Shown here: in pieces, positions 1,414-29,384 of the stretch
How positions within the stretch are numbered: the stretch's first letter is position 1
How the letters are laid out: each line of letters begins with the position of its first letter
NCBI GenBank assembly: GCA_005883305.1
Contig: VBAC01000001.1
Coordinates: 1,054,001 to 1,118,000, forward strand
Direction of reading: 5' to 3'
Length of the DNA: 64,000 nt
Source: Alphaproteobacteria bacterium
GTDB taxonomy: Bacteria; Pseudomonadota; Alphaproteobacteria; Sphingomonadales; Sphingomonadaceae
Position numbers and translations under genes: made by a program
Notes under the pieces: generated by a model
Seen by the model: the letters and a program-made list of their open reading frames with translations, nothing else
The model's database searches: none
Told to the model about the DNA's origin: nothing

Positions 1414-3078
1414 CTACAGCGCTCGCACGCGTGGCTCGCGCTGGACGCCTAGCATCAGTTCGGTGAGTGCCCACACCATCGCATCGGCCCGGTCCGGGCT
1501 CTTGCCAGGGCCCTCGTAATCAGCGCCGGCAATAATCCCGCAAAGCTCCGCCTCCAGCTCCGGAAAGCGCCCGTGAAGCACCACCTTGCCGGCCTCGAAC
1601 AGCATCGCCACCGGGGCCGCGCGCTCGGCCTTGGAAAGCGTCGCGGTCACCGGGCGGACTCGCAGTTTCGGGTCGGCGGTGTGGAGGATGGCTTCGACCA
1701 TTCGGCCGCCCTGGTTTTGTTCGGCGACGATGAGGATGGGGATGGGGTGGGAGCGCTTCTTGCCCTCGTTGCCGGCGCTTCGACTGCCTCGCAGGCGATC
1801 AGGATAAACGCGGCGTGGCGATCCGGGGTCATCCTCCTCGGGACTGGGCTGCCGCGCCCCTTCGGGGCCTGGGCCCCGGCCTTCGCCGGGGACCATGCTC
1901 CAGATCCTTGCCGCGTCGGCCACCGCTCGGGACCAGCCTTCGGGGGTGCGGCCGGTGACGCTGTGATCGGCGAGGACGTGGGCCCTGCCCTCGCTGTCCC
2001 TGGCGCAGACGATTATGCCGCAGGTGCCGCCGGCGGCGGGGGGATCGACGCCGATGACGATGCGAGTGAAGCGCCCTCTCTCCCCTCCGGGGAGAGAGTT
2101 GGAGAGAGGGGCTGGGGCGGCGGGCATAGGGTGCGGAGGCTTGGGGTCCCCCTCTCCCCGCTCGCCTTCGGCGAGTCGACCCTCCCCCCAGTGGGGGGAG
2201 GATGGGCGCCGGCACGTCTCCAGCAATTCCACCGTCCACAATTGCCCCGGCGAATCCGCGAGCAGCTCGCCGCCGAGTTCCTGGCGCCCCAGGCGGGTGC
2301 CGGCGTAGAGGGACTGCATGCGCCGGTTCCAGCGCTCGCTGTTGTGGGGGTTGCGGTGGGTCGGGCCGCCGATCACCACCGTGTCCGGGGCGGCCATGAT
2401 CGCCGTCAGCACCGGGCCAGGGCGCGGGGTGGTGGTGACGATCGCGCGGGGATCCTCGCCGAGGCGAAGGCCGAGCTGGAGCATGTCCCAGGTCTCCTGC
2501 GCCTTCTCCCACTTGGCGAGCTCGTCGCACCAGGCGAGGTGGTGCTGGGGGCCGCGGAGCAATTCGGGCGAGTGGCCCGAGAAGAGCTGGGCCTCGGCGC
2601 CGCCGCGGAAACGGACGAGGCCGTGGCTCGGGCGCCATTCGCGGATGCAGTGGCCGGCGACCTCGAGCAAGCCGCTCGGCCCCTCGACCATCACGCGGCG
2701 GGCTTCGGCCAGCGTGGCGCCGACGAGGGCGATGCGCAGGCGCGTGCCGGGAGCAGCCGCCGCGACCTGCTGCTCGATCCACTTGGCGCCGGCGAAGGTC
2801 TTGCCGAAGCCGCGGCCGCCCATGACGACGCAGGTCGACCAGTCGGCGCCATCCTCGCGTTTCTCGGGCGGGAGCTGGCCCTCGTGGGCCCAGCTTTCGA
2901 AATCGCCGTCGAGGGCGTCGGCGTCCTCGGGCCCGAGCGCGCGGACCATCGCCTCGCGCACGTCCGGAGGGGCGTCGAGCAGGATATGGAGGATTCCGGT
3001 GCCGCGCGGGAAGCGGGGCGCGCGGTGCCACGGTTCGGGAAGCCGGCGGCCAGGGCGCCGGTGGCTAGAGGAGCCCAC
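1414..3078 (-). CDS. Terminase large subunit, gene-transfer-agent type, with two repeat-encoded insertions
   Basis: Phage-type DNA-packaging motor (TerL). The ATPase half has Walker A MGGRGFGKT (residues 86-94) and Walker B HHLAWCDE (179-186) followed by the coupling stretch TTTPRPGP. The nuclease half shows IGVDPPAAGG (first acidic residue), AEQNQGG (second) and DRADAMVWAL near the end (third). This arrangement matches the large terminase of RcGTA-like elements. Two stretches do not belong to the family: residues about 291-336 between the ATPase and nuclease halves, and about 395-447 inside the nuclease. Both are low-complexity peptides encoded by dispersed palindromic repeats; without them the length falls to about 455, close to the usual size. 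The GTG start at 3078 overlaps the small-subunit gene by 14 bases. No portal or capsid gene follows. Confidence 0.85.
   Translation of the reverse strand: MGSSSHRRPGRRLPEPWHRAPRFPRGTGILHILLDAPPDVREAMVRALGPEDADALDGDFESWAHEGQLPPEKREDGADWSTCVVMGGRGFGKTFAGAKWIEQQVAAAAPGTRLRIALVGATLAEARRVMVEGPSGLLEVAGHCIREWRPSHGLVRFRGGAEAQLFSGHSPELLRGPQHHLAWCDELAKWEKAQETWDMLQLGLRLGEDPRAIVTTTPRPGPVLTAIMAAPDTVVIGGPTHRNPHNSERWNRRMQSLYAGTRLGRQELGGELLADSPGQLWTVELLETCRRPSSPHWGEGRLAEGERGEGDPKPPHPMPAAPAPLSNSLPGGERGRFTRIVIGVDPPAAGGTCGIIVCARDSEGRAHVLADHSVTGRTPEGWSRAVADAARIWSMVPGEGRGPGPEGARQPSPEEDDPGSPRRVYPDRLRGSRSAGNEGKKRSHPIPILIVAEQNQGGRMVEAILHTADPKLRVRPVTATLSKAERAAPVAMLFEAGKVVLHGRFPELEAELCGIIAGADYEGPGKSPDRADAMVWALTELMLGVQREPRVRAL
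1738..1896. repeat. Repeat insertion inside the terminase nuclease domain
   Basis: Contains GCCCCGGCCTTCGCCGGGG-type palindromic sequence, the same family as the repeat upstream of paaE at 51648-51737. It is read in frame as about 53 extra residues of the large terminase. Confidence 0.65.
2071..2208. repeat. Repeat insertion between terminase ATPase and nuclease halves
   Basis: CTCTCCCCTCCGGGGAGAG-type arms facing each other, the same family as the repeat at the end of glyA (32098-32218). It is translated as about 46 residues rich in Gly, Pro, Ser and Glu. Confidence 0.7.
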
Positions 3079-3577
3079 GCTGCCTCGCGATCGCCGAGAG
3101 CTTGGCGAGGATCGATTCGTGGACCTCGGCGAGGCTTCGGCGGCGGGCCGGCCAGGCCGGGCGGCGGCCCTCCCCCGCCAAAGCCGGGCGGTTCAATTTG
3201 GCGATGGCGATCGCCTCCTGGACACTCATGTTCGGCCAAGGGCATTCGGGCGGCGGCGGCTTGCCCGAGAGGACATGGTCGGCGGCCTGGAACAGCCCGT
3301 CCTCGATGCGGCCGCAGCCGATCGCTCGGGCATGGGCCTTCTTCTCGGCGAAATCCGGATCGCGGCGGGCGCGGGCGTAGATCGCCTCCCTGCTGAAGCC
3401 AGCCTTCTCGGCGGCGAGGCGGACGTTGTTGGTGGCGGCGAGCGTGTCGAGGAAGAGGCTTTCCGCCTCGTCGGTCCAGCGCGCGCCGGCGCTGTGGATG
3501 ATCTGAGGCCCGTCCTTGCCCGACGCGCGGCGCCCGCGCCCCGGCGGCCCGCGGCGGGCGCTTTTCTTTGCGGCCAT
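3065..3577 (-). CDS. Small terminase-like DNA-binding protein (GTA gene 1 type)
   Basis: 170 residues starting at ATG 3577. A basic N-terminal tail is followed by a helix-turn-helix region (DTLAATNNVRLAAEKAGFSR, about residues 43-62, then EAIYARARRDPDFAEK), typical of terminase small subunits that recognise DNA and load the large subunit. Its position directly before the large subunit with a 14-base overlap matches genes 1 and 2 of RcGTA-like clusters. The C-terminal part (PNMSVQEAIAIAKLNRP) is the usual short helical tail. The rest of such a cluster is absent here, so the pair may be a remnant, or the structural genes may lie elsewhere on the chromosome. Confidence 0.7.
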   Translation of the reverse strand: MAAKKSARRGPPGRGRRASGKDGPQIIHSAGARWTDEAESLFLDTLAATNNVRLAAEKAGFSREAIYARARRDPDFAEKKAHARAIGCGRIEDGLFQAADHVLSGKPPPPECPWPNMSVQEAIAIAKLNRPALAGEGRRPAWPARRRSLAEVHESILAKLSAIARQRGLL

Positions 3578-3708
3578 GTGAGTCGCACCTCCCGAAGTTC
3601 CCTACATGTGCCGTATTGTTCTTGCTTTGTCAACATAGCTCACCGATCTGGTTCGCAGAGGGGCGGCAGCGGGTTGCCGGTCGCATCGAATCGTCGCACG
3701 GGTGCGGG

Positions 3709-4161
3709 ATGTGGATGTCGCGCGTTCCGATCCTTCCCGCCCTGCTGATCCGGGGCTTTTTCGGCCTTCGCGGCCTCGCTGCCGTCGCCATGCTCGGGGC
3801 TGCTGCCTCAGCAACTGCGTCGCACCCGCCGACCATCCCCGCTCCGCCGAGCGCCGCGATCGAGCGGGCCTGGCGGAGCATCGACGACCCGCAGCTCGCC
3901 GCCCAGCTGCGGCCGGGCCGGCGGCTCGAGCCCGAGGAATGCGTCGTCCTCCTCGGCCTCTATCGCCCTTCGGCGACGAGGCGCCAGCGTTCGGCCGTCG
4001 ACCACGCCGGCGATGCGTGGCGCGCCCGCCTGGTCCGCCGGCTCGGCGAGGCCGGCGCCCGGCAGATGATCGGCAGCAGCGTCAACCCGCTCGCCCCCAC
4101 GCCGCCGCCGCTGCGTCAGGCCGCGGCATCCTGGTGCGTGGCTCACGCGCCGCCGCGGTGA
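3709..4161 (+). CDS. Secreted protein of unknown function
   Basis: 150 residues from ATG 3709. The first about 37 residues form a signal peptide with a long hydrophobic core ending in AAASATA. The mature part starts with a proline-rich segment and contains ERAWRSIDDPQLAAQLRPGR and EPEECVVLLGLYRPS, then a basic stretch, and ends with an alanine- and proline-rich tail holding one more cysteine. Two cysteines in the mature part could form a disulfide in the periplasm. I do not recognise the family. It is transcribed divergently from the terminase pair; nothing in the sequence points to a shared role. Confidence 0.5.
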   Translation: MWMSRVPILPALLIRGFFGLRGLAAVAMLGAAASATASHPPTIPAPPSAAIERAWRSIDDPQLAAQLRPGRRLEPEECVVLLGLYRPSATRRQRSAVDHAGDAWRARLVRRLGEAGARQMIGSSVNPLAPTPPPLRQAAASWCVAHAPPR

Positions 4162-4244
4162 CGGGCGCTGAAGGCTCGCCGGCGGGGCGTCGGATCAGGT
4201 AACCGCGCGCCAGCTTCAGCAGGCCCGCGTTCCCGGCGCCGGCC

Positions 4245-5198
4245 CTAGCGCTCCGCGCCCGGCGCCGGCAGGCCGAGATAATGAAGCCGCCTGACCTCGC
4301 GCCGCCCGCGCACCACCGTGTCGAGGATCAGGCCGGTGAAGAAGGCGAGGAAGGCGAGGATCATCAGGCCGGTGACCAGGATCGCGGTCGGGAAGCGGGG
4401 GACGAGGCCGGTCTGGACGTAGGTGACGACCAGCGGCACCGCGAGGACGATCGCCAGCGCGGCGAGGAACAGGCTGAAGCTGCCGTAGAACAGGACCGGG
4501 CGCTCGATCCGGTAGAGGTGGAGGATGGTCTTGAGGATCCGCCAGCCGTCGCGGTAGGTCGAGAGCTTGGAGACCGAGCCTTCCGGGCGGGCGCCGTAAT
4601 CGGTCTCGACCTCGCCGACCGGCATGACCAATTCGAGCGCGTGGACGCTGATTTCGGTCTCGGTCTCGAAGCCGCGCGAGAGCGCCGGGAAGGACTTGGC
4701 GAAGCGGCGCGAGAAGATGCGGTAGCCGGAGAAGATGTCGGTGAAGCTGCGCCCGAACAGGCCGGCGAGGAGCCCGGTGAAGAGCCTGTTGCCGAGCACG
4801 TGGCCGGCGCGATAGGCCTCGCCTTCCCGCTCGGCCGGCGTCCGCCTCGCGCCGACGACCATGTCGAGTTGCTCGTCGAGCAATTTGGCGACCAAAGCGG
4901 GGGCGGCCGACGCGTCGTAGGTCGAATCGCCGTCGGCCATGACGTAGATGTCGGCCTCGACGTCGGCGAACATTCGGCGCACGACATGGCCCTTGCCCTG
5001 CATCTTCTCCGAGCGGACGATGGCGCCGGCCCGGGCCGCAACCTCGCGGGTGTCGTCCGAGCTGTTATTGTCGTAGACGTAGATCGCGGCCCCGGGGAGC
5101 GCGGCGCGGAACGCCGCGACCGTCTGCGCGATCGCGGCTTCCTCGTTATAGCAGGGGAGCAGGACCGCGACGCGGAGTTCGGAGATCTCGATCGGCAT
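4245..5198 (-). CDS. Family 2 glycosyltransferase, membrane-anchored
   Basis: 317 residues. The GT-A fold starts at once: LLPCYNEEAAIAQTV, YVYDNNSSDDT (nucleotide-sugar binding), then MADGDSTYD, the DXD-type metal site. The DIFSGYRIFSRRF segment is typical of the polyprenyl-phosphate sugar transferases. After about residue 225, two hydrophobic segments (FYGSFSLFLAALAIVLAVPL and AILVTGLMILAFLAFFTGLI) anchor the enzyme in the inner membrane. The likely reaction is transfer of a sugar from a nucleotide sugar to a lipid carrier for envelope polysaccharide or glycolipid synthesis; acceptor and sugar cannot be told. It follows tig on the same strand, separated by a large palindromic repeat, so co-transcription is doubtful. 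Confidence 0.8.
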   Translation of the reverse strand: MPIEISELRVAVLLPCYNEEAAIAQTVAAFRAALPGAAIYVYDNNSSDDTREVAARAGAIVRSEKMQGKGHVVRRMFADVEADIYVMADGDSTYDASAAPALVAKLLDEQLDMVVGARRTPAEREGEAYRAGHVLGNRLFTGLLAGLFGRSFTDIFSGYRIFSRRFAKSFPALSRGFETETEISVHALELVMPVGEVETDYGARPEGSVSKLSTYRDGWRILKTILHLYRIERPVLFYGSFSLFLAALAIVLAVPLVVTYVQTGLVPRFPTAILVTGLMILAFLAFFTGLILDTVVRGRREVRRLHYLGLPAPGAER

Positions 5199-9740: not shown

Positions 9741-10900
9741 GGCCGCTGTCCCTTGACCAGCGCCGACGCGCGCTCGAGCCCGCGGCAGAGCGCATGGACG
9801 GCGCGGCGGCGCGCGCCCTTCAGCGGAATCGTGACCCGGACGACGGAGCGCCGCTCGCGCCAGAGACCGTCGATCATCGAATGATGGTCCATCGCGCAGC
9901 TGTCGACCCATTCTATGTCGGGATCCTCGAGGATGCGCAGATTTTCGATCTGGAGGAGGACTCCGGGCGAGAAACGGCCATAATCCTCGTCGAACGCGGT
10001 CTTGAACGAAAAGCCGCCCGGCGGCGTCAGGAAATTGGCGAGCATGGCGATGGCGCGGCCGTCGAGATCGAGGCGCAGGAACTGGAGGCGGCCCGCTTCC
10101 CACGCCCCGGCGGCGGCGGCGCGGAAGAAGGCTTCGGCCGCGGCGTCCACCGCGAGCCCGGTGCCCGCCTTGCCCTTCCAGCCCTTGCGCTCCAAAGCGA
10201 GATAATCGTCGCACCAGGCGGAGAGCTCGGACCCTTCCGCCAGGCGGCGAAAGCCGAGATCGCCGAGCTCGCCGAGGCGGCTGCGCTGGCGGCGCAGCTC
10301 CTTGCGCTTCTTGCCGCGGACGGCGAGCTCGAAATAGGCGCCGGGGTCGAGCCGGGTGTCGAGCATCGCACGGCGGCGGCGGTGAACGACCTCGCCGCGG
10401 CCGAGCGCCCGGAACAGGGGGCCGTCCTCCGCCAATCCGCGCAGGTGAAGGAAAGCACCGGCCCAATCGTCGCGGTCGAGCAGGCCGAGAAGAGCCTCCC
10501 AGAAGGCGGCCTCCTCGCCCGCGGCGACGAGCGGCGAGCCCAGAAAGGCGTGGTCGTGATACCAGTTCTGGACGAAGCGGACCGGCAAATGCGCATAACC
10601 CCGCTCGATCGTCAGCGGCAGCAGGCCGATCAGGCGCGCGCCGCGGCGGACCTCGGCCAGGCGGATGTCGCGATCCCCGGCGAGATGGGCGAGCGAAGCG
10701 GCGACGAACCAGCGCTCGTGAAAGGGGTTTGGCTCGGCGGCGCGCAGGACCAGATCGTCCCATTCGCCGGCCAGATCGGCAAGCGCGAGGCGGGCGGGAC
10801 GAAGCCGCGCGCGGACCCCTGCCGCCGACATGGCGGCGAGCGGCGCCCGCGAGGCGGCGCGGCGCTCCGCCGACGTCTCGATCCGGCCCATCGAACTCAT
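9737..10900 (-). CDS. GNAT-fold acetyltransferase, CelD/BcsL (FemAB-like) family
   Basis: 387 residues. The pattern NPFHERWFVAASLAHLAGDR, then LPLTIERGYAHLPVRFVQNWYHDHAFLGSPLV, and the second half with KELRRQRSRLGELG and FLRLDLDGRAIAMLANF plus FKTAFDEDYGRFSPGVLL, is typical of acetyltransferase_6 proteins of exopolysaccharide and cellulose loci. It is cytoplasmic, with no signal peptide. It probably acylates a sugar precursor; the deacetylase-like partner translated from the overlapping GTGA suggests opposing or successive modification of the same polymer. Start ATG 10900 or the methionine three codons later. Confidence 0.75.
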   Translation of the reverse strand: MSSMGRIETSAERRAASRAPLAAMSAAGVRARLRPARLALADLAGEWDDLVLRAAEPNPFHERWFVAASLAHLAGDRDIRLAEVRRGARLIGLLPLTIERGYAHLPVRFVQNWYHDHAFLGSPLVAAGEEAAFWEALLGLLDRDDWAGAFLHLRGLAEDGPLFRALGRGEVVHRRRRAMLDTRLDPGAYFELAVRGKKRKELRRQRSRLGELGDLGFRRLAEGSELSAWCDDYLALERKGWKGKAGTGLAVDAAAEAFFRAAAAGAWEAGRLQFLRLDLDGRAIAMLANFLTPPGGFSFKTAFDEDYGRFSPGVLLQIENLRILEDPDIEWVDSCAMDHHSMIDGLWRERRSVVRVTIPLKGARRRAVHALCRGLERASALVKGQRP

Positions 10901-10947
10901 CGGCGCGCGATAGCCGACAGAGGTAAATTAATGGTGCGGAGAGAAGC

Positions 10948-12534
10948 TCATGCCGTCTGGAGAAGATGGTCGCGATAGCGATCGCGCAGGGCCGTCTTGA
11001 GCAGTTTGCCGGTGGCCGTGTGCGGAAGGCTGTCGACGAACAGGATTTCGTCCGGAAGCCACCATTTGGCGACTCGCGTGCCGAGATGGGCGAGGATCGC
11101 GTCGGCGCCGACCTCCGAGCCTTCCTTGCGGACGACCAGCAACAGCGGCCGCTCGTCCCATTTGGGATGCCGCGCGCCGATCGCCGCCGCCTCGGCGACG
11201 CCCGGGCAGCCGACCGCCGCATTCTCCAGCTCGACCGAGCTGATCCATTCGCCGCCGGATTTGATCACGTCCTTGGAACGGTCGGTGATCTGGAGCGTGC
11301 CGCAGGGGTGGAGGACGGCGACGTCCCCGGTGTCGAACCAGCTGCCCTCGCCCGCGCAATCGCCCGCCTGGTCCTGAAAATAGCGGCGGATCACCCAGGG
11401 GCCGCGAATCTGGAGGCGGCCCGAGCTCTGGCCGTCGCGCGGCTGTTCCTTCTCCTCGTCGTCGACGACCCGGAGCTCGACTCCGAAGGGCACCCGGCCC
11501 TGCTTGCAGACGAGATCGACCTGCTCGTCGAAGCTCAATTCCTCCCAATTGGCGGGCGGCGAGCCGATCGTGCCGATGGGCGAGGTCTCGGTCATCCCCC
11601 AGGCGTGGCCGACTCGGATACCGGTCTTCATCAGCCGCTCGACCATCGAGCGCGGCGCCGCCGAGCCGCCGATGGTGACGATCCGAAGATGCTTCGGCAT
11701 CTCGCCGGTCTTGTCGATATGCTGGAACATGGAGAGCCAGACCGTCGGGACTCCCGCGCTGTGGGTCACCTTCTCCTCGTTCATCAGGCGGCAGAGCAAG
11801 ACCGGATCATTGACCGCCGCGTAGACCATCTTGATCCCGGCCATCGCTCCGGAGAAGGGAAGACCCCAGGCCGCGGCGTGGAACATCGGCACGATCGGCA
11901 GCGCCACCGTGCTCGGCGAAAGATCGAAGCAGGACGGCGCGACCTCGGCCATGGCGTGGATCACCGAGGAGCGATGCTCGTAGAGAACGCCCTTGGGATT
12001 GCCGGTCGTCCCCGAGGTATAGCAGAGCATGCAGGGCTCGCGCTCCGAGCCCTCGACCCAGGAATAATCGCCGTCCTCGGCGTCGAGCAGGGCCTGGAAC
12101 GCGCCGTCGTCGAAGCAGACGTAATGGTCGATGGAGGTCCACTGGTCCTTGAGGCGGTCGACGATCGGCTGGAACAATTTGTCGTAGAAGAGGACCTTAT
12201 CCTCGGCATGGTTGGCGATGTAGACGAGCTGCTCGTCGAACAGGCGCGGATTGATCGTGTGGATGACGCCGCCCATGCCGATCGCGCCGTACCAGGCGAT
12301 CAGGTGATAATGGTGGTTCATGGCCAAGGTGCCGACCCGGTCGCCGCGCTTCAGGCCCATCTTCTCAAGCGCTTGCGCGAGCTTCCTCGAATCGCGTGCG
12401 ATGCCGGCCCAGCTGGTGCGCTCGACCCTGCCGTCGGCCCAGCCGGTGACGATTTCGCGAGCGCCGTGCTCGCGCTCGGCATGGTCGATGAGCCGCGGCA
12501 CGCGCAGCTCGAAATCCTGCATCCCGCCCAGCAT
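10948..12534 (-). CDS. Acyl-CoA ligase (AMP-forming), medium/long-chain fatty acid type
   Basis: 528 residues, the length of AlkK/FadD-like enzymes. The AMP-binding P-loop is [18 protein letters not shown], the adenine motif GMTETSP, the ribose contact WFDTGDVA, the hinge [13 protein letters not shown], and the catalytic lysine motif TATGKLLKT close to the C-terminus. It activates a carboxylic acid through an acyl-adenylate and transfers it to CoA. Overall pattern ([20 protein letters not shown] at the start) is that of AlkK-like medium-chain ligases rather than phenylacetate-CoA ligase. It stands alone behind the dnaE gene; a shared operon is possible, since 41 bases separate them. Confidence 0.87.
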
Positions 12535-21133: not shown

Positions 21134-21625
21134 CTAATCGACGCGGCGGACGGTCGTTTCGACGGTGGCGACGTTGAAGCCGAAGCGGCGGATGGTCATC
21201 CGGTTCGAGGCGGCGCGGCCGCCCGGCTGGAGCGTGATCCACTGCTCGACCGAGGGCCCCTCGGCAAGGCGGTAGCGCAGGTGGAGGGTGGCGCCGGACA
21301 CTTCGCCGGCGACCGCGCCGCGCGCGTCGCTGATCGTCCCGGTCACCGCGTTGGCAGCGCCGCGGGTCAGCCGCCAGACCCGGCGCCGCGCCGGCTTGCC
21401 CTCCTCCTCGACGACCTGATCGAGCACCAGCGTGCCCCCCTGCATGCGCCCGGTGGCACGATCGCGAACGGCGTGGCGGCCGGACATGATGATGTGCACA
21501 ATGCCCGAGCCCTCGGTGCGGCCGACGAAGAAGCGCTCGAGCGCGCTTCCCGGCGGCGGCGGCGGATGCGCCGGCCCCTGCGCCGCGGCGAGGAGCAGGA
21601 AGCCGAGGATTTCGGGAAGGGCCAA
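21134..21625 (-). CDS. DUF3833 family envelope protein
   Basis: 163 residues. The only sensible start is a TTG at 21625 with GGAG seven bases upstream. The N-terminus is a short signal peptide (MALPEILGFLLLAAAQG). The mature part fits DUF3833: ERFFVGRTEGSGIVHIIMSG, GGTLVLDQVVEEEGKPARRR then VWRL, GTISDARGAVAGEVSGATLH with LRYRL, and a final RMTIRRFGFNVATVETTVRR. Family members are periplasmic or lipoproteins of unknown role; this one lacks a lipobox cysteine. It converges on the small four-cysteine gene with only 9 bases between the stops. Confidence 0.7.
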   Translation of the reverse strand: MALPEILGFLLLAAAQGPAHPPPPPGSALERFFVGRTEGSGIVHIIMSGRHAVRDRATGRMQGGTLVLDQVVEEEGKPARRRVWRLTRGAANAVTGTISDARGAVAGEVSGATLHLRYRLAEGPSVEQWITLQPGGRAASNRMTIRRFGFNVATVETTVRRVD

Positions 21626-22900: not shown

Positions 22901-23375
22901 GGGGCCCTTCGACACGCTCAGGACAGGCCCTTTCGGCAGGCTCGGCACAGGCGGAAGTTTCCGAAGTTTCCGCTTCCTTAGGGAGAGAAAAACCTGAACC
23001 TTCCGGGATTTGTTCGGCCGGGGCGGGAGCGTGCGGGAGCAGATTACGATCAAGCTGGGCTTCGCCCACCTGTCGGCCGGGCGTTCAACCTCTCCGTCGC
23101 TGCGCTGCGCGCTGCTCAGGTGCGTTTCCGCGCGAATGGTCCCAATGTTCGCGGTGGCCATGAGCAATGCGACGGCCAAGCCCGGATCGGTAGGCGCGCA
23201 CCTTTTCCCAACTGAGAATCAGCCGCCCGGCGGGCGAGCGCCGAGTCGCACTAATTTAGCAGACAGAGCTCGAGCTCGCAAGAACGTGGCAGGAACATTT
23301 CCAGATCAATTCGAGGTCTATCGTATTACACCAAGGAAGTCCGTCACCGACCGTCGCTGAGCACAGATTACGAGG
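22901..23375. other. Gene-free border of the foreign island
   Basis: Starts with a CCCTTCGACACGCTCAGGAC-type dispersed repeat (22905-22950) and a GCGGAA...TTCCGC hairpin near 22973, then degenerate sequence without a convincing reading frame. From about 23220 base composition shifts to more A and T, marking the left border of the island holding the methyltransferase and nuclease genes. I found no integrase and no copy of the pyrG tail here. Confidence 0.4.
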
Positions 23376-24026
23376 TCACGCCGCAGCGCTCATCTCTACA
23401 AAGACGTGCTTAAGGCGCAATGGATGCGCGCCATTTTGCAATACCGTCCCCTCCAGTAGGGCTAATGCGAGTGGATGCCCTTCGCACGTAGCAAGCTTGG
23501 CGGGAGTTCCGTAGTGGTGGCAGATGGATGCATCTATCGCTTCTACCACGTCATTCACAGGAGGCTTCAGAACATACCCAAGCATAAAGCCCCACTCCAA
23601 ACCCGAGCCGTATTGCCCCGCTACGTACCGTTGGACACCTTTCACCACATAATTTGCATTCAGCGTGGAATCTCCCGCTGCCACCCTCTTACACTCCACC
23701 GGAACGTACGCATCTTCAAATCCAAACTGATGCGTGAATTTCATCGTGATATCTATTCTACCTAGGATCTCGGGGCCCATTGTTGACATGTCCTCCAGCT
23801 CATGCTCGCCGCGAATTTCGAGATTTGTAAGGCCCAACGCCACTTTAACCCGGCGCACAGCTTTCCGAACGACCATTGTTATAGGGACTTCCAGCATCTT
23901 CGCTTCGATATGCGGCCTTGCTTCCTCAGCCCCACGGCATATCAAATCCACTACTGTCGCAACTTGATCAGCACCAAGTCCGAAAGCCGGATTGCCGATA
24001 GGGTCGTCGGAGCTAAGCAGCGGCAT
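23376..24026 (-). CDS. PD-(D/E)XK nuclease candidate paired with the methyltransferase
   Basis: 216 residues. The central segment GRIDITMKFTHQFGFEDAYV followed by PVECKRV gives the D...ExK arrangement of restriction-type nucleases, the strand VPVECK being characteristic. YVVKGVQRYVAGQYGSGLEW and GFMLGYVL downstream match the helix and strand that follow the active site in many such proteins. No DNA-binding domain is recognisable. The start overlaps the end of the 1025-aa methyltransferase by 14 bases, so the two are translated as a unit. Codon use is AT-richer than in neighbouring genes. A cleaving partner of the methylase is the best guess; another role in the same defence module cannot be excluded. 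Confidence 0.6.
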   Translation of the reverse strand: MPLLSSDDPIGNPAFGLGADQVATVVDLICRGAEEARPHIEAKMLEVPITMVVRKAVRRVKVALGLTNLEIRGEHELEDMSTMGPEILGRIDITMKFTHQFGFEDAYVPVECKRVAAGDSTLNANYVVKGVQRYVAGQYGSGLEWGFMLGYVLKPPVNDVVEAIDASICHHYGTPAKLATCEGHPLALALLEGTVLQNGAHPLRLKHVFVEMSAAA

Positions 24027-27000
24027 GCTGAGTCTGGAGCCAATGATCCGCTAACACAACATCCCCGTCATTCAAGCCAGCAGTCGCCGTCCAGTACCGT
24101 TGTTCAGACGGCTTGAGAATAAATAGGCTGTTTTGAATGTAAAACCGCAAGTGTCTACGCTCGTTGAGATATGGGGGCGCATGAGTCTCAGACTTTCCGC
24201 CAAGCAGAGTGGCTAGATTTGCAAGGTCTTTCGCATCGCCCATGCCAACGGAGCACGAACCATCGGGGCTTCCAGGGGCCATGCTGAATCTGACCGCTGT
24301 AATCCCGGGAATGCCTTTGGACAGATCACCACCTTCAACCTGCGCATCGTATAACGAAGCTCTCAAATGTCGCTCGCCTCGTGCCCTAAGATAACCGTTT
24401 ACAGTTGCCACGGCTGCGAGGGCATAGGTCTCTAAGTCTCCGACATTGGGTCTCTTCACCGCGCGACAGCGTTCGCTTCGCCCTTCAAATATCAAGAACC
24501 GTGCTCTCTCGACACTATCCTCAACTATTACACGTTCTTGATCCTCCAATTCGTAAAGATCAAAAACCGCTTTATCTAGAGCCCTGAGGGCCTCTTGCGA
24601 GTGCGGCGAGTCTGCAAGTGCCCTTTCTCGATCAACGGCTTGTTTCAATAAATGTTCTGGGCATCTCGCCAGATCAGGGACTCTTAAGGATAGTATATCC
24701 TCTGGCGTCACTGTGGGCCGCTCCAACCCCCATGTCGGGCCCCCAAATGCCAATTGAAAAGTAGTAATCGCAGAATTTAAAATTGCCGACAAGACGAACG
24801 GATACCTTCCGTCTAGTCCAGAAAATGATATGCCATAAAGATTCTGGGTATAAAGAGCGTCGTCCAATACTATGGATGCTGCATAACGGCCTCTCTCAAT
24901 ACCGAATGAGTAGGCCCCTTTCGGGCAGAGAACGAGAGGGCCTGAAAATATCGAACGCTTACGTGGTCGGTGAAGGGTGGCCCGCTCAAGATGGTCTAAC
25001 CCTTCGGTCGCGATACGAAGCGGCCGAAATTCCATGGGGGTGACAACCGGAAGTTTGTAGTACGACGGGGGAACAGACCTCTGTGGGGATCCTCCCACAA
25101 TGTAGCCTTGCCCCCGCCCCTGCTCCGGATCAACGTCAAGGCAATTAAGTTGATGTTCGAGCGTCGGAAAATTCTCCCAGAGACGGCGAATGAGCCATCC
25201 GTCACGAATGGTGCCGAACGTGGCGGCTTTCAGAAAGGTAGGAGCCGCTTTGATATCGGCCAGTGGCACTGACTTAATCTCGGCAGGGCCAATCTGGAAA
25301 ATCCCACTACCCTTGAAATGAGGGGCCCAAGGAATTGATCCGACGAGCACTCGCTCCTTTACTGTCGTCAGTGCACATCGCGCAAAAAACAGTAGCGCGG
25401 GCCCCGATGCGTCAGGAAAGAGATCCTCCTTTCTCAGAAACGACAAATTTATCAGAGCGGTTGGCGCAAGTCGCTCCATAAGCGACGAACGCGATTGAAT
25501 CGCAAAGTCGTCGCCCGAAAAGAATGGAGTGGCTTTCATGATCATGCCGACTCTGCCGGAAGCCCCTGCCAGGGACGCTGCAACTGTTAGAAATTGCTGA
25601 TCCGGGCTACGGCGCGGACGAAGCGTTTTCTCATCCTGTAGGTTACGCGTCGGATATCCTCCGTCTAGCTTGACGTAGGTCCAGGGTGGGTTGCCAACCA
25701 CGGCGTCGAATGGGACTTGATTAAGGGTAGCCGGGAGCTCATCTGCCAAGGAATCTGCATGAAATAATGTTGTTCCTAAGAGGTGTTCGAACCTCAAATC
25801 CGAGATATCGTTGATGCTTTCTTCGTCGAATTCGAGGGCGGCGAGGTATAGACTGAATGCCGCAATCCCGAGTGCAGATTTATTAACATCGATCCCAAAG
25901 AGCTGTGTGTATAGGATTCTGCGAACTATGTTCCGAGTGGATGGCGCCCCTTTAGTCGCTTTCCAAACCAAACGGCGGAAAGCTTCTACGAGAAATGCCC
26001 CTGAACCACAGGTGGGATCTACAATCCGCGCTTCGCTATCCAAATCCTCAAATACGGGATCGAGGGTCAAATGCACGAGTTCGATGGGAGTGTAATGGAG
26101 TCCTTGCGCCGCAGCCTCCTCGGCTGCGGACGATCGAGCGAACTGTTGATATATAGAACTAATTAGGTCAACAGGGATCGCATTGAACCGAAACTTGAAT
26201 AATCTTCCTTGACCCCTTTTTTCGGGAACTAAGCTTCGGCTGTCTACAAAGTCGCGAAGCAATACCAGGTGCGCGTCGGTAAGATGCTCCTCTTCAAGCC
26301 CTTGGTCTTCCATGGGAAACAGGTCCCCGTCGAACGTCGACCGGAGCCATGCAAACAGCGCAAAGGTTGTCCTCTTCTCCTGGAAGATTTTTCCGAGGTC
26401 TGCCGGTATGTCGTCGGGTAAAAATCTCTGAGCGATGCCCCGATCGATCAAATACCAAGTGAATATGCATCGACCAATAAAGCGTTGAGATAAATCGCGG
26501 ATAACTGCAGGCCGATCCACAACCGCTGCTTCACTCAAACCCGAAGGAGCGAAAGCCAATTCGTTTTCTAAAGCATCAATCTCAGCCAGTAGCTCACGGT
26601 CAATACGACAGTTGCGATTGATTGATGATCCAAGCGAACTGCTCCAGAAAGCGCCCGTCTCTGTTGCAACACGTCCACAGATCGCATTGAGAGATTTCAA
26701 TCCATCCACGCCAAGTGCGAACACTTGAAGTGGCTTAGTACCACTCTTCTCGTTCCATATGCGAGGTGCTGCATAACAATCATACAGGCGGACCTCAACG
26801 GGTGTGATGATCCACAGTAACGGCGCAAAGCCGATATTCCACGCGGTCTCGTGCCAGTGCTTTAGCTGATCGGGCGTCGGGTCTTCCTCACCCGAGTCTT
26901 TGAAGACACTTGTCGCGGAATTCTGCGCAAAGAAAAGATCGTCCGCTTCGAGACCGATTTCCGGCGAGAAAACCGCCCGATATTGTCGAGCCCTAGAGTC

Positions 27001-27090
27001 GCCTGATGCTACTAGCCCCCTCGCAGGCGAACCATCGGGCGCCAAATAGCCGGTTTCTTGAAGAACGCGTTTATATACGGCACTGGCCAC
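24013..27090 (-). CDS. Adenine-specific DNA methyltransferase, Eco57I/type IIG-like
   Basis: 1025 residues. An N-terminal domain of about 320 residues (with WNIGFAPLLWIITPVEVRLY) precedes the catalytic core: LHYTPIELVHLTLDPVFEDL (331-350), the SAM-binding motif VDPTCGSGAFLVEAF (357-371), FGIDVN (398-403), and the catalytic NPPW (467-470), which mark N6-adenine methylation of the gamma class. The remaining 550 residues should hold target recognition (PLVLCPKGAYSFGIERGRYA region) and an extra C-terminal domain ending in LFILKPSEQRYWTATAGLND. No clear PD-(D/E)XK site is seen in its own N-terminus, which makes the small downstream nuclease candidate meaningful. No specificity subunit or helicase accompanies it. 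Composition is foreign relative to the chromosome. Likely self/non-self marking in a restriction-like defence system. Confidence 0.82.
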   Translation of the reverse strand: MASAVYKRVLQETGYLAPDGSPARGLVASGDSRARQYRAVFSPEIGLEADDLFFAQNSATSVFKDSGEEDPTPDQLKHWHETAWNIGFAPLLWIITPVEVRLYDCYAAPRIWNEKSGTKPLQVFALGVDGLKSLNAICGRVATETGAFWSSSLGSSINRNCRIDRELLAEIDALENELAFAPSGLSEAAVVDRPAVIRDLSQRFIGRCIFTWYLIDRGIAQRFLPDDIPADLGKIFQEKRTTFALFAWLRSTFDGDLFPMEDQGLEEEHLTDAHLVLLRDFVDSRSLVPEKRGQGRLFKFRFNAIPVDLISSIYQQFARSSAAEEAAAQGLHYTPIELVHLTLDPVFEDLDSEARIVDPTCGSGAFLVEAFRRLVWKATKGAPSTRNIVRRILYTQLFGIDVNKSALGIAAFSLYLAALEFDEESINDISDLRFEHLLGTTLFHADSLADELPATLNQVPFDAVVGNPPWTYVKLDGGYPTRNLQDEKTLRPRRSPDQQFLTVAASLAGASGRVGMIMKATPFFSGDDFAIQSRSSLMERLAPTALINLSFLRKEDLFPDASGPALLFFARCALTTVKERVLVGSIPWAPHFKGSGIFQIGPAEIKSVPLADIKAAPTFLKAATFGTIRDGWLIRRLWENFPTLEHQLNCLDVDPEQGRGQGYIVGGSPQRSVPPSYYKLPVVTPMEFRPLRIATEGLDHLERATLHRPRKRSIFSGPLVLCPKGAYSFGIERGRYAASIVLDDALYTQNLYGISFSGLDGRYPFVLSAILNSAITTFQLAFGGPTWGLERPTVTPEDILSLRVPDLARCPEHLLKQAVDRERALADSPHSQEALRALDKAVFDLYELEDQERVIVEDSVERARFLIFEGRSERCRAVKRPNVGDLETYALAAVATVNGYLRARGERHLRASLYDAQVEGGDLSKGIPGITAVRFSMAPGSPDGSCSVGMGDAKDLANLATLLGGKSETHAPPYLNERRHLRFYIQNSLFILKPSEQRYWTATAGLNDGDVVLADHWLQTQHAAA

Positions 27091-27200
27091 CGGTCAGCTC
27101 GTTCGCTCAGAAATAAGGTCAGTTGTCGGCACCAATCGCCCGCTCCAATTCAGTAGAACAAAGCAGTAACATGGCGTTTGGCTGGCGTAAACTCAGCAAT

Positions 27201-27707
27201 TCAAACGAGCCGAGATTGCTTGACCGCAGCCTCGATGAAGCTTGCGAAGAGAGGATGCGGTTCCTTCGACTCCGCCACTCGCTGCGCTCGGGACGGGCTC
27301 AGGACATTCGGGGTGTCGGCTCTCGGCTTCGCTCGATCCAACATCAGCGGCAAACCCTTCGATCCCGAACGCCACGGCTAGACCAGCCGCGATTGCTTGA
27401 CGGCGGGCCTCAATGAAGCTCGCGAACAGTGGCTTCCTTCGACTGCACCACTCCCTTCGGTCGGGCTGCGCTCAGGATGAGCGGGTTTCAGCGGAGTTTC
27501 AGCCCCGTCAAACGAGGCGAGACTGCTTGACCGCAGCCTCGATGAAGCTTGCGAAGAGAGGGTTCCTTCGACTCGGCCATTCCCTTCGGTCAGGACCGGC
27601 TCAGGATGAGCGGGGGGTCCGCTCTCGTCTCCGCTCGATCGGACATCAGCGGAGTTTGAAGCTCACCCCCTCAAACGAGCCGTGATTGTTTCATGGCCGC
27701 CTCGATA
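27201..27707 (-). repeat. Tandem array of four displaced pyrG 3' ends
   Basis: Four degenerate copies of the last codons of pyrG follow the gene in the same orientation, at about 27201-27260, 27378-27430, 27508-27562 and 27671-27707. The first reads [19 protein letters not shown]-stop, identical in protein to the real pyrG tail at 27747-27806 although 12 of 19 codons differ. The third reads [16 protein letters not shown]-stop. The second has the same tail with one extra base. The fourth is shorter with one change (IEAAMKQSRLV). Between them lie CCTTCGAC...CTCAGGA dispersed repeats. Synonymous-only differences mean these were once functional gene ends, as expected if elements repeatedly integrated at, or recombined with, the end of pyrG. 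The remainder of the 27091-27746 gap has no gene. Confidence 0.8.
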
Positions 27708-27746
27708 ATCCTTCGACAGGCTCAGGACGATCGGAGGGTGGAGCCC

Positions 27747-29384
27747 TCAAACAAGACGAGATTGTTTGACGGCGGCTTCTATGAAGCTGGCGAATAAGGG
27801 GTGAGGTTCAAACGGCTTGGACTTCAGCTCCGGGTGGAACTGAACCCCGATAAACCAGGGATGATCCGGCCGCTCGACGATCTCCGGCAATTCCCCGTCC
27901 GGGCTCATTCCTGAGAAGACCAGCCCGCCCTGCTCCAGCGCTTCCTTGTAGTGGACGTTGACCTCGTAGCGGTGGCGGTGGCGTTCGCTGATGCGTTCGG
28001 CGCCGTAGACGCTTCGGACCACGCTGTTGCCGCCGAGCACCGCTTCATAGGCCCCGAGCCGCATCGTGCCGCCGAGATCGCCGCCCTCCGCCCTCTTCTG
28101 CAGGCCCTCCTCGCTCATCCATTCGGTGATCAGGCCGATGATCGGCTCCTCCGCCTCGCCGAACTCGCTGCTCCCCGCCCCCGCCAGCCCCGCGGTGTTC
28201 CGCGCCGCCTCGATGCAGGCCATCTGCATTCCGAGGCAGATGCCGAAGAAGGGGACGGCGCGTTCGCGGGCGAAGTGGACGGCGGCGATCTTGCCCTCGC
28301 TGCCGCGCTCGCCGAAGCCGCCGGGGACGAGGATGGCGTGCATCGGCTCGAGCGAGGCGGCGATCTCGGCCTCGGGATGCTCGAACAATTCCGCGTCGAG
28401 CCACTGGATGTTGACCTTGACCCGGTTGGCGAGGCCGCCGTGGACGAGCGCTTCGGTGAGGCTCTTATAGGCATCCTGGAGGCCGACATATTTGCCGACC
28501 ACGCCGATCGTCACCTCGCCCTCGGGGTTGAACAGGCGGTCGGTGACGTCGCTCCAGCGGGCCATTTCGGGCTCGCGCGCGTCCGCGATGCCGAAGGCGC
28601 GCAGCACCTCGGCGTCGAGGCCGGCCTCGTGATATTGGGCGGGGACGGCGTAGATGCTCTTCGCGTCGAGCGCGGGGATGACCGCTTCCTTGCGCACGTT
28701 GCAGAAGAGCGCGATCTTGGCCCGCTCGTTGTCGGGCAAGGGGTGTTCGAGGCGGGTGACGATGATCTCGGGCTGGATTCCGAGGCTGGTCAGCTCGCGG
28801 ACCGAGTGCTGGGTCGGCTTGGTCTTCAGCTCGCCGGCGGCGGCGATGTAGGGGACTAAAGTGGTGTGGATCGAGAGGGTGGAGCCGCGCTCGCTTTCGT
28901 TGCGGAACTGGCGGATCGCCTCGACGAAGGGCAGGGATTCGATGTCGCCGACCGTTCCGCCGACCTCGCAGATGATGAAGTCGCATTCCGGGTCGATGTC
29001 GGCGCGGATGAAGTCCTTGATCGCGTTGGTGACGTGCGGGATGACCTGGACGGTGGCGCCGAGATAGTCGCCGCGCCGCTCGCGCTGGATGATTCCCTGG
29101 TAGATTCGCCCCGAGGTGACGTTGTCGCTCTGGCGCGCGGGGACTCCGGTGAAGCGCTCGTAATGGCCGAGATCGAGGTCGGTCTCGGCGCCGTCGTCGG
29201 TGACGTAGACTTCGCCGTGCTGGTAGGGGCTCATCGTGCCGGGATCGACGTTGAGATAGGGATCGAGCTTCCTCAGGCGGACCGTATAGCCGCGGGCCTG
29301 GAGAAGCGCCGCGAGCGACGCCGCCATCAGGCCCTTGCCAAGCGATGAGACCACGCCGCCGGTGATGAAAATGAACCGCGCCAT
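27747..29384 (-). CDS. pyrG: CTP synthase
   Basis: 545 residues, full length. The synthetase domain begins [19 protein letters not shown] (P-loop) and contains [20 protein letters not shown] and the allosteric region [14 protein letters not shown]. The C-terminal glutaminase domain has the nucleophile in [11 protein letters not shown] and the His-Glu pair in GVQFHPEL. It aminates UTP to CTP with glutamine. The final codons include TTA and ATA, which are rare in this GC-rich DNA, whereas the displaced tails downstream use GC-ending codons; this suggests that the present gene end was imported. In many alphaproteobacteria pyrG follows secG, which here lies 27 kb away. Confidence 0.97.

Follow-up and report, generated by a model that had tools for sequence, protein, structure and literature searches.

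The window, that is, the whole stretch of 64,000 nt that we analysed, derives from Alphaproteobacteria bacterium (Sphingomonadaceae; GCA_005883305.1, contig VBAC01000001.1, positions 1,054,001-1,118,000 of the forward strand). It contains two overlapping genes on the minus strand, coding for a methyltransferase (MTase) and for a putative nuclease, together with the following features:

23376-24026, minus strand: nuclease gene, PD-(D/E)XK, 216 aa, ATG start
24013-27090, minus strand: MTase gene, gamma-type N6-adenine methyltransferase with a fused target-recognition region, 1025 aa, GTG start
24013-24480, minus strand: MTase C-terminal domain, residues ~870-1025, conserved in the family
24850-25209, minus strand: variable target-recognition segment of the MTase, residues ~628-747, exchanged between alleles in relatives
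25231-26193, minus strand: MTase catalytic domain, residues ~300-620, with SAM motif DPTCGSG and catalytic NPPW
26611-27090, minus strand: MTase N-terminal domain, residues ~1-160, occupying the position of the Type IIG nuclease domain
27091-27200, minus strand: place of a MerR-like gene in relatives, with no remnant in the window
27201-27746, minus strand: region immediately upstream of the pair, with four degenerate copies of the pyrG 3' tail

The initial annotation had placed the pair at the same coordinates (23376-27090) and had given the same protein sizes, as well as the overlap of 14 bases, which corresponds to 24013-24026. It had also considered the pair as AT-richer foreign DNA, which is supported by a GC content of 52-53%, versus 68.7% in the rest of the window, and had noted the absence of a helicase, HsdS or BREX/DISARM partner, none of which lies next to the pair in the window, where its neighbours are housekeeping genes. 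Both frames are conserved over their full length in other genera, with 56-65% identity, and the nuclease gene shows a dN/dS of ca. 0.06-0.10 among relatives, indicative of purifying selection; the pair is therefore more than a chance association of two reading frames.

The pair lies beside an array of pyrG tails, as first described, with copies at 27201, 27382, 27508 and 27671 and the real end of pyrG at 27747; these copies are probably integration scars. In several congeners, pyrG is closely followed by the gene that is located at 21134-21625 in the window and, thus, its 3' end looks like a repeated integration site. Additionally, a near-identical short repeat (CTTCGACASGCTCAGGAC) flanks the low-GC island, with one copy on each side (22907-22924 and 27711-27728), and a congener carries a second partial pyrG (G007:C16:110401-111210, locus L062; residues 1-270, 70% identity) away from the main pyrG. 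We discarded tRNA genes as a general integration site in the relatives, because there is only one tRNA gene in 18 loci.

Distribution and gene order in relatives

Searching genome contigs with the nuclease retrieved 17 loci from Mesorhizobium, Bradyrhizobium, Methylobacterium, Sphingomonas, Rhizobium, Rhodobacter, Bosea and others, to which we added two loci from Agrobacterium plasmids, annotated as "hypothetical protein" beside "N-6 DNA methylase". The MTase gene is directly upstream of the nuclease gene in all of these close loci (19/19), with visibly overlapping frames in most of them, and the relatives at ca. 20% identity found in profile searches are again MTase-nuclease pairs. In the converse search, the C-terminal domain of the MTase matched 10 of 385 genomes of the class, and the nuclease gene was directly downstream in the nine credible matches (9/9); the nuclease of G193 was too diverged for the first profile, and G402 was rejected as an example of an MTase without nuclease, because there is no such MTase at that place. 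The co-occurrence of both genes in other genomes, on which the pairing originally proposed depended, consequently holds in both directions. The family is sparse, appearing in ca. 2% of the sampled genomes of the class; in the window's genus, the other members that were sampled lack it, with one distant relative as the sole exception. Likewise, we found no homologue of the nuclease in a phage collection. Some copies are altered: in the two Agrobacterium plasmids (L021 and L022, both at 9798-12017) the MTase is devoid of its first ~290 residues and the nuclease is intact, and in L035 (5870-8903) a frameshift separates the MTase into two frames of 624 and 374 aa, with the nuclease gene next to it intact.

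The locus had been described as a two-gene unit, which does not hold for the relatives: they contain a three-gene MerR-MTase-nuclease operon, of which the window form is a reduced version. The MerR-like gene ends on or at the start codon of the MTase in 14 close loci, belongs to PF13411 (above the gathering score in L015 and L088) and recurs in L088, a distant relative from outside the class. In other clades, the same place is occupied by an HTH_11 gene (L080); by eye, L081 (~2500-2640) and L099 (1073-1444) show a small ribbon-helix-helix-like gene instead. The MerR-like gene of L012 (4848-4943) is cut to a remnant ORF of ~31 codons; both its start and its stop, the latter at the MTase start, are preserved, so that translational coupling to the MTase may persist. 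Nothing resembling this gene was found in the genome of the window, where a weak partial match (E 0.012) was the only candidate and was rejected. These two losses, in L012 and in the window, occurred without visible damage to the pair, which suggests a regulatory and not a catalytic function for the MerR-like gene. The pyrG gene is upstream of the MTase in the same orientation, and we found no terminator-like site in the interval between them, making it possible that the pair is reached by read-through from pyrG.

Neighbour clustering over the relatives did not retrieve any constant partner besides the MerR-like gene, ruling out a helicase or any other gene as a constant third partner; helicase-like neighbours appear in single loci only. 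Five relatives (L004, L005, L010, L013 and L014) contain, shortly upstream of the operon (~2860-4285), phage-type tyrosine integrases with an Arm-DNA-binding domain, suggesting that the integrase-flanked MerR-MTase-nuclease operons are small mobile elements. Defence genes are also found near relatives, including homologues of a Type IIG enzyme, DrmD, HamB-like, Upx and PDC-S28. The DrmD homologue, near one relative, and the resemblance of the MTase to PglX/BrxX could indicate that the pair is a fragment of a larger defence system of the BREX, DISARM or BR type with its other parts nearby. We nevertheless regard this as very improbable, given that the sole constant partner is the MerR-like gene, that the window neighbours are housekeeping genes and that the core of the known BREX-related systems is a BrxC/DUF499-type ATPase (PMC12839542). 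No BrxC/DUF499 ATPase, PglZ, DrmA/B or helicase lies beside the pair in the window, and none is constant in the relatives.

Predicted structure of the nuclease and the methyltransferase

The 216-aa protein has no match in Pfam, PADLOC or PHROGs and no significant match in NCBIfam; the analysis brings to light a nuclease family that is absent from all these collections. Across three clades at ca. 20% identity, its only invariant charged or histidine residues are E46, D92, E111, K113, R133 and H207, the first four of which constitute the expected helix-1 Glu and D...ExK set, with R133 and H207 as extra residues. When its predicted model (pLDDT 84) was re-aligned to solved structures with VIA, the best match was BamHI (142 residues, 4.1 Å), with a Z of 7.9 that, as all VIA Z-scores below 8, is middling according to the tool's own note; further matches were OkrAI, BstYI, BglII, McrC, SwaI, BsaWI, Bse634I and NgoMIV. 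Foldseek alone did not retrieve any restriction enzyme at a significant E-value with this model, and the Xaa-Pro peptidases that it returned were judged spurious (TM-scores of ~0.2-0.26, rmsd >13). Searches of the PDB produced only chance matches in phmmer with the single sequence (YopH, E 0.4 and worse) and nothing useful with the nuclease profile. The model contains a restriction-endonuclease core, that is, the alpha-beta core with D...(E/D)xK and helix-1 E that characterizes the PD-(D/E)XK superfamily. Although the Z values alone are middling, fold, motif and conservation agree, and the predicted assignment to this superfamily is firm, as anticipated from the D...ExK signature in the initial annotation.

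The MTase matches PF02384 N6_Mtase (E 9.9e-19), PF07669 Eco57I and Type IIG models which, together with the DPTCGSG and NPPW motifs in the ORF, bears out its identification as a gamma-type adenine methyltransferase. In structure comparisons, its predicted model (pLDDT 75) matches CamA, Type I HsdM, MmeI, DrdV, BpuSI and BrxX/PglX, and is aligned with DrdV over 7-846. The order of domains is an N-terminal domain (~1-160), a helical connector, the methyltransferase (~300-620), the recognition region (620-850) and a C-terminal domain (~870-1025), the last of which is a candidate docking site for the nuclease; profile searches with the N-terminal and C-terminal domains did not find any solved relative. 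The island, first described as having no specificity subunit, does contain an element of this kind: the target-recognition region is fused inside the MTase and includes the segment of residues ~628-747 that is exchanged between alleles.

The N-terminal domain shows an order of strands and helices comparable to that of the Type IIG nuclease domain, and no D, E or K is invariant across clades in residues 1-165. Only the near clade retains D50 and K64, but with V or I at the position of the catalytic Glu; clades B and C have lost both residues. This agrees with the original remark that the MTase has no visible nuclease site of its own, and we infer that its N-terminal domain is a dead nuclease-like domain.

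The catalytic residues of both the MTase and the nuclease are all intact in the window copy. This, the low dN/dS of the nuclease and the defence-island neighbours of relatives argue against a role of the MTase as an orphan-like epigenetic enzyme accompanied by a nuclease that is non-restricting, or accessory or abortive. Such a role would fit the missing regulator of the window copy and the seemingly broken copies of L035, L021 and L022, but we consider it rather improbable.

Exchange of the target-recognition segment

Between the MTase genes of L006 and L009, DNA identity is 83-98% to either side of codons ~630-745 and falls to 47-67% inside, with dS values of 0.32 outside and 2.1 inside the segment, whereas their nucleases share 88% protein identity. 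In phylogenetic trees, two alleles of residues 628-747 are distributed over three backbone lineages. AU tests, for which the segment and the groups were picked after inspecting the data, indicated that the TRD tree rejects the grouping of L006 and L009 (p 3e-4) and that the grouping by TRD allele is rejected by both the nuclease tree (p 5e-6) and the backbone tree (p 1e-38). A similar dip in identity occurs in another clade, between L034 and L079. As deduced from these comparisons, two alleles of the target-recognition segment have been exchanged, and the nuclease has remained associated with the backbone; in effect, recombination in the relatives has already performed a recognition-swap experiment.

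If the recognition domain set both methylation and cleavage, one would predict such an exchange of the segment, chosen here post hoc, without any change in the nuclease. Were the system an orthodox one, with an endonuclease specific in its own right, altering only the methylation specificity would leave the host unprotected against its own enzyme. It is simplest to assume that the nuclease follows the MTase; sequence choice would then probably lie in the MTase, which would guide the nuclease. However, the two recognition alleles might have an identical target site, and a nuclease with its own specificity would then be compatible with the swap.

This bears on the possibility of an orthodox two-gene Type II system, composed of a BamHI-like endonuclease with its own specificity and a large protecting MTase. 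BamHI has 213 aa and recognises its own site, so that the size of the 216-aa protein is compatible with such an endonuclease; also, the gene order and size are classical, and the closest nuclease folds are those of self-sufficient Type IIP enzymes. Moreover, separate endonuclease and MTase enzymes exist in some Type II systems (PMC6158711). Against this, the recognition segment has been repeatedly exchanged without a matching change in the nuclease, the nuclease is kept with the same partner over three clades, and the MTase retains a Type IIG-like N-terminal domain and connector. We therefore see an orthodox system as unlikely, albeit as the strongest competitor.

In all, we favour, as the probable interpretation, a split and motor-less Type IIG-like restriction-modification system whose nuclease is supplied in trans. 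The MTase would bind a specific site, a putative motif read by its own target-recognition domain, and methylate what is presumably an adenine in host DNA; its N-terminal domain would occupy the position of the Type IIG nuclease with the catalytic residues lost. The 216-aa BamHI-fold protein would dock on the MTase, in a putative complex, and cut where the MTase engages an unmethylated site. The small upstream DNA-binding gene, MerR-like in the clade of the window, would normally control expression, and the window copy, without this regulator, could be expressed by read-through from pyrG. For the narrower proposal that the MTase, together with its recognition domain, lost its own nuclease domain to decay and now recruits in trans a BamHI-fold nuclease that is blind to sequence, we see about an even chance.

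If the nuclease is indeed recruited in trans, the specificity of the system could be changed by swapping a single segment of the MTase and, if it is both blind and guided, many recognition domains could serve to program one and the same nuclease.

Comparison with known restriction systems

The MTase and recognition-domain fold is similar to that of PglX/BrxX from BREX, but here there is no BrxC, PglZ or other BREX gene beside the MTase. Like Type I systems, the family shows specificity and methylation on one side with the nuclease as a separate subunit, as well as exchange of recognition domains; unlike in them, there is no HsdR motor and no separate HsdS in the window neighbourhood, and the MerR-like gene is the only constant third partner. 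With orthodox Type IIP systems that combine a gamma MTase and a BamHI-like endonuclease it shares the two adjacent and separate genes for endonuclease and MTase, and the small PD-(D/E)XK nuclease; in contrast, the recognition segment is exchanged here independently of the nuclease and the MTase is ca. twice the usual size.

The closest resemblance in architecture is with Type IIG/IIL enzymes such as BpuSI, DrdV and MmeI, with the gamma MTase, N-terminal domain, helical connector and C-terminal recognition region matching over most of the protein; as shown by the matches to MmeI, DrdV, BpuSI and CamA, the gamma MTase and the C-terminal recognition region are in one chain. Type IIG enzymes are described as always having the nuclease at the N-terminus (PMC3874165). 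Here, no endonuclease active site is fused to the MTase chain: the nuclease is a separate gene product, the N-terminal domain of the MTase is devoid of any conserved catalytic residue, and the MTase has an extra conserved C-terminal domain. The initial suggestion of a restriction-like pair stands, but a split variant of Type IIG fits better than a wholly new kind of defence pair. A literature search, with REBASE and subscription papers outside its scope, did not find any description of the MTase-nuclease family, and the arrangement is thinly spread and apparently undescribed.

A partial precedent is the proposed split Type IIG complex of Haloferax volcanii, HVO_A0006/HVO_A0237, with nuclease and MTase on separate genes (PMC4389544). 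As in our family, the nuclease and MTase of a Type IIG-like enzyme are encoded separately; however, the Haloferax nuclease is an N-terminal fragment of a Type IIG enzyme and the genes are apart, whereas here there is a dedicated nuclease family, one overlapping operon and an MTase that keeps its own, seemingly dead, N-terminal domain. The origin of the classical two-enzyme Type II systems is an open question; one proposal, which has also been modelled, derives them by separation from a Type IIG-like ancestor (PMC6158711). The family described here resembles a present-day example of that separation and, if a sequence-blind nuclease is recruited in trans, it would represent an evolutionary step between one-piece Type IIG and two-enzyme Type II systems.
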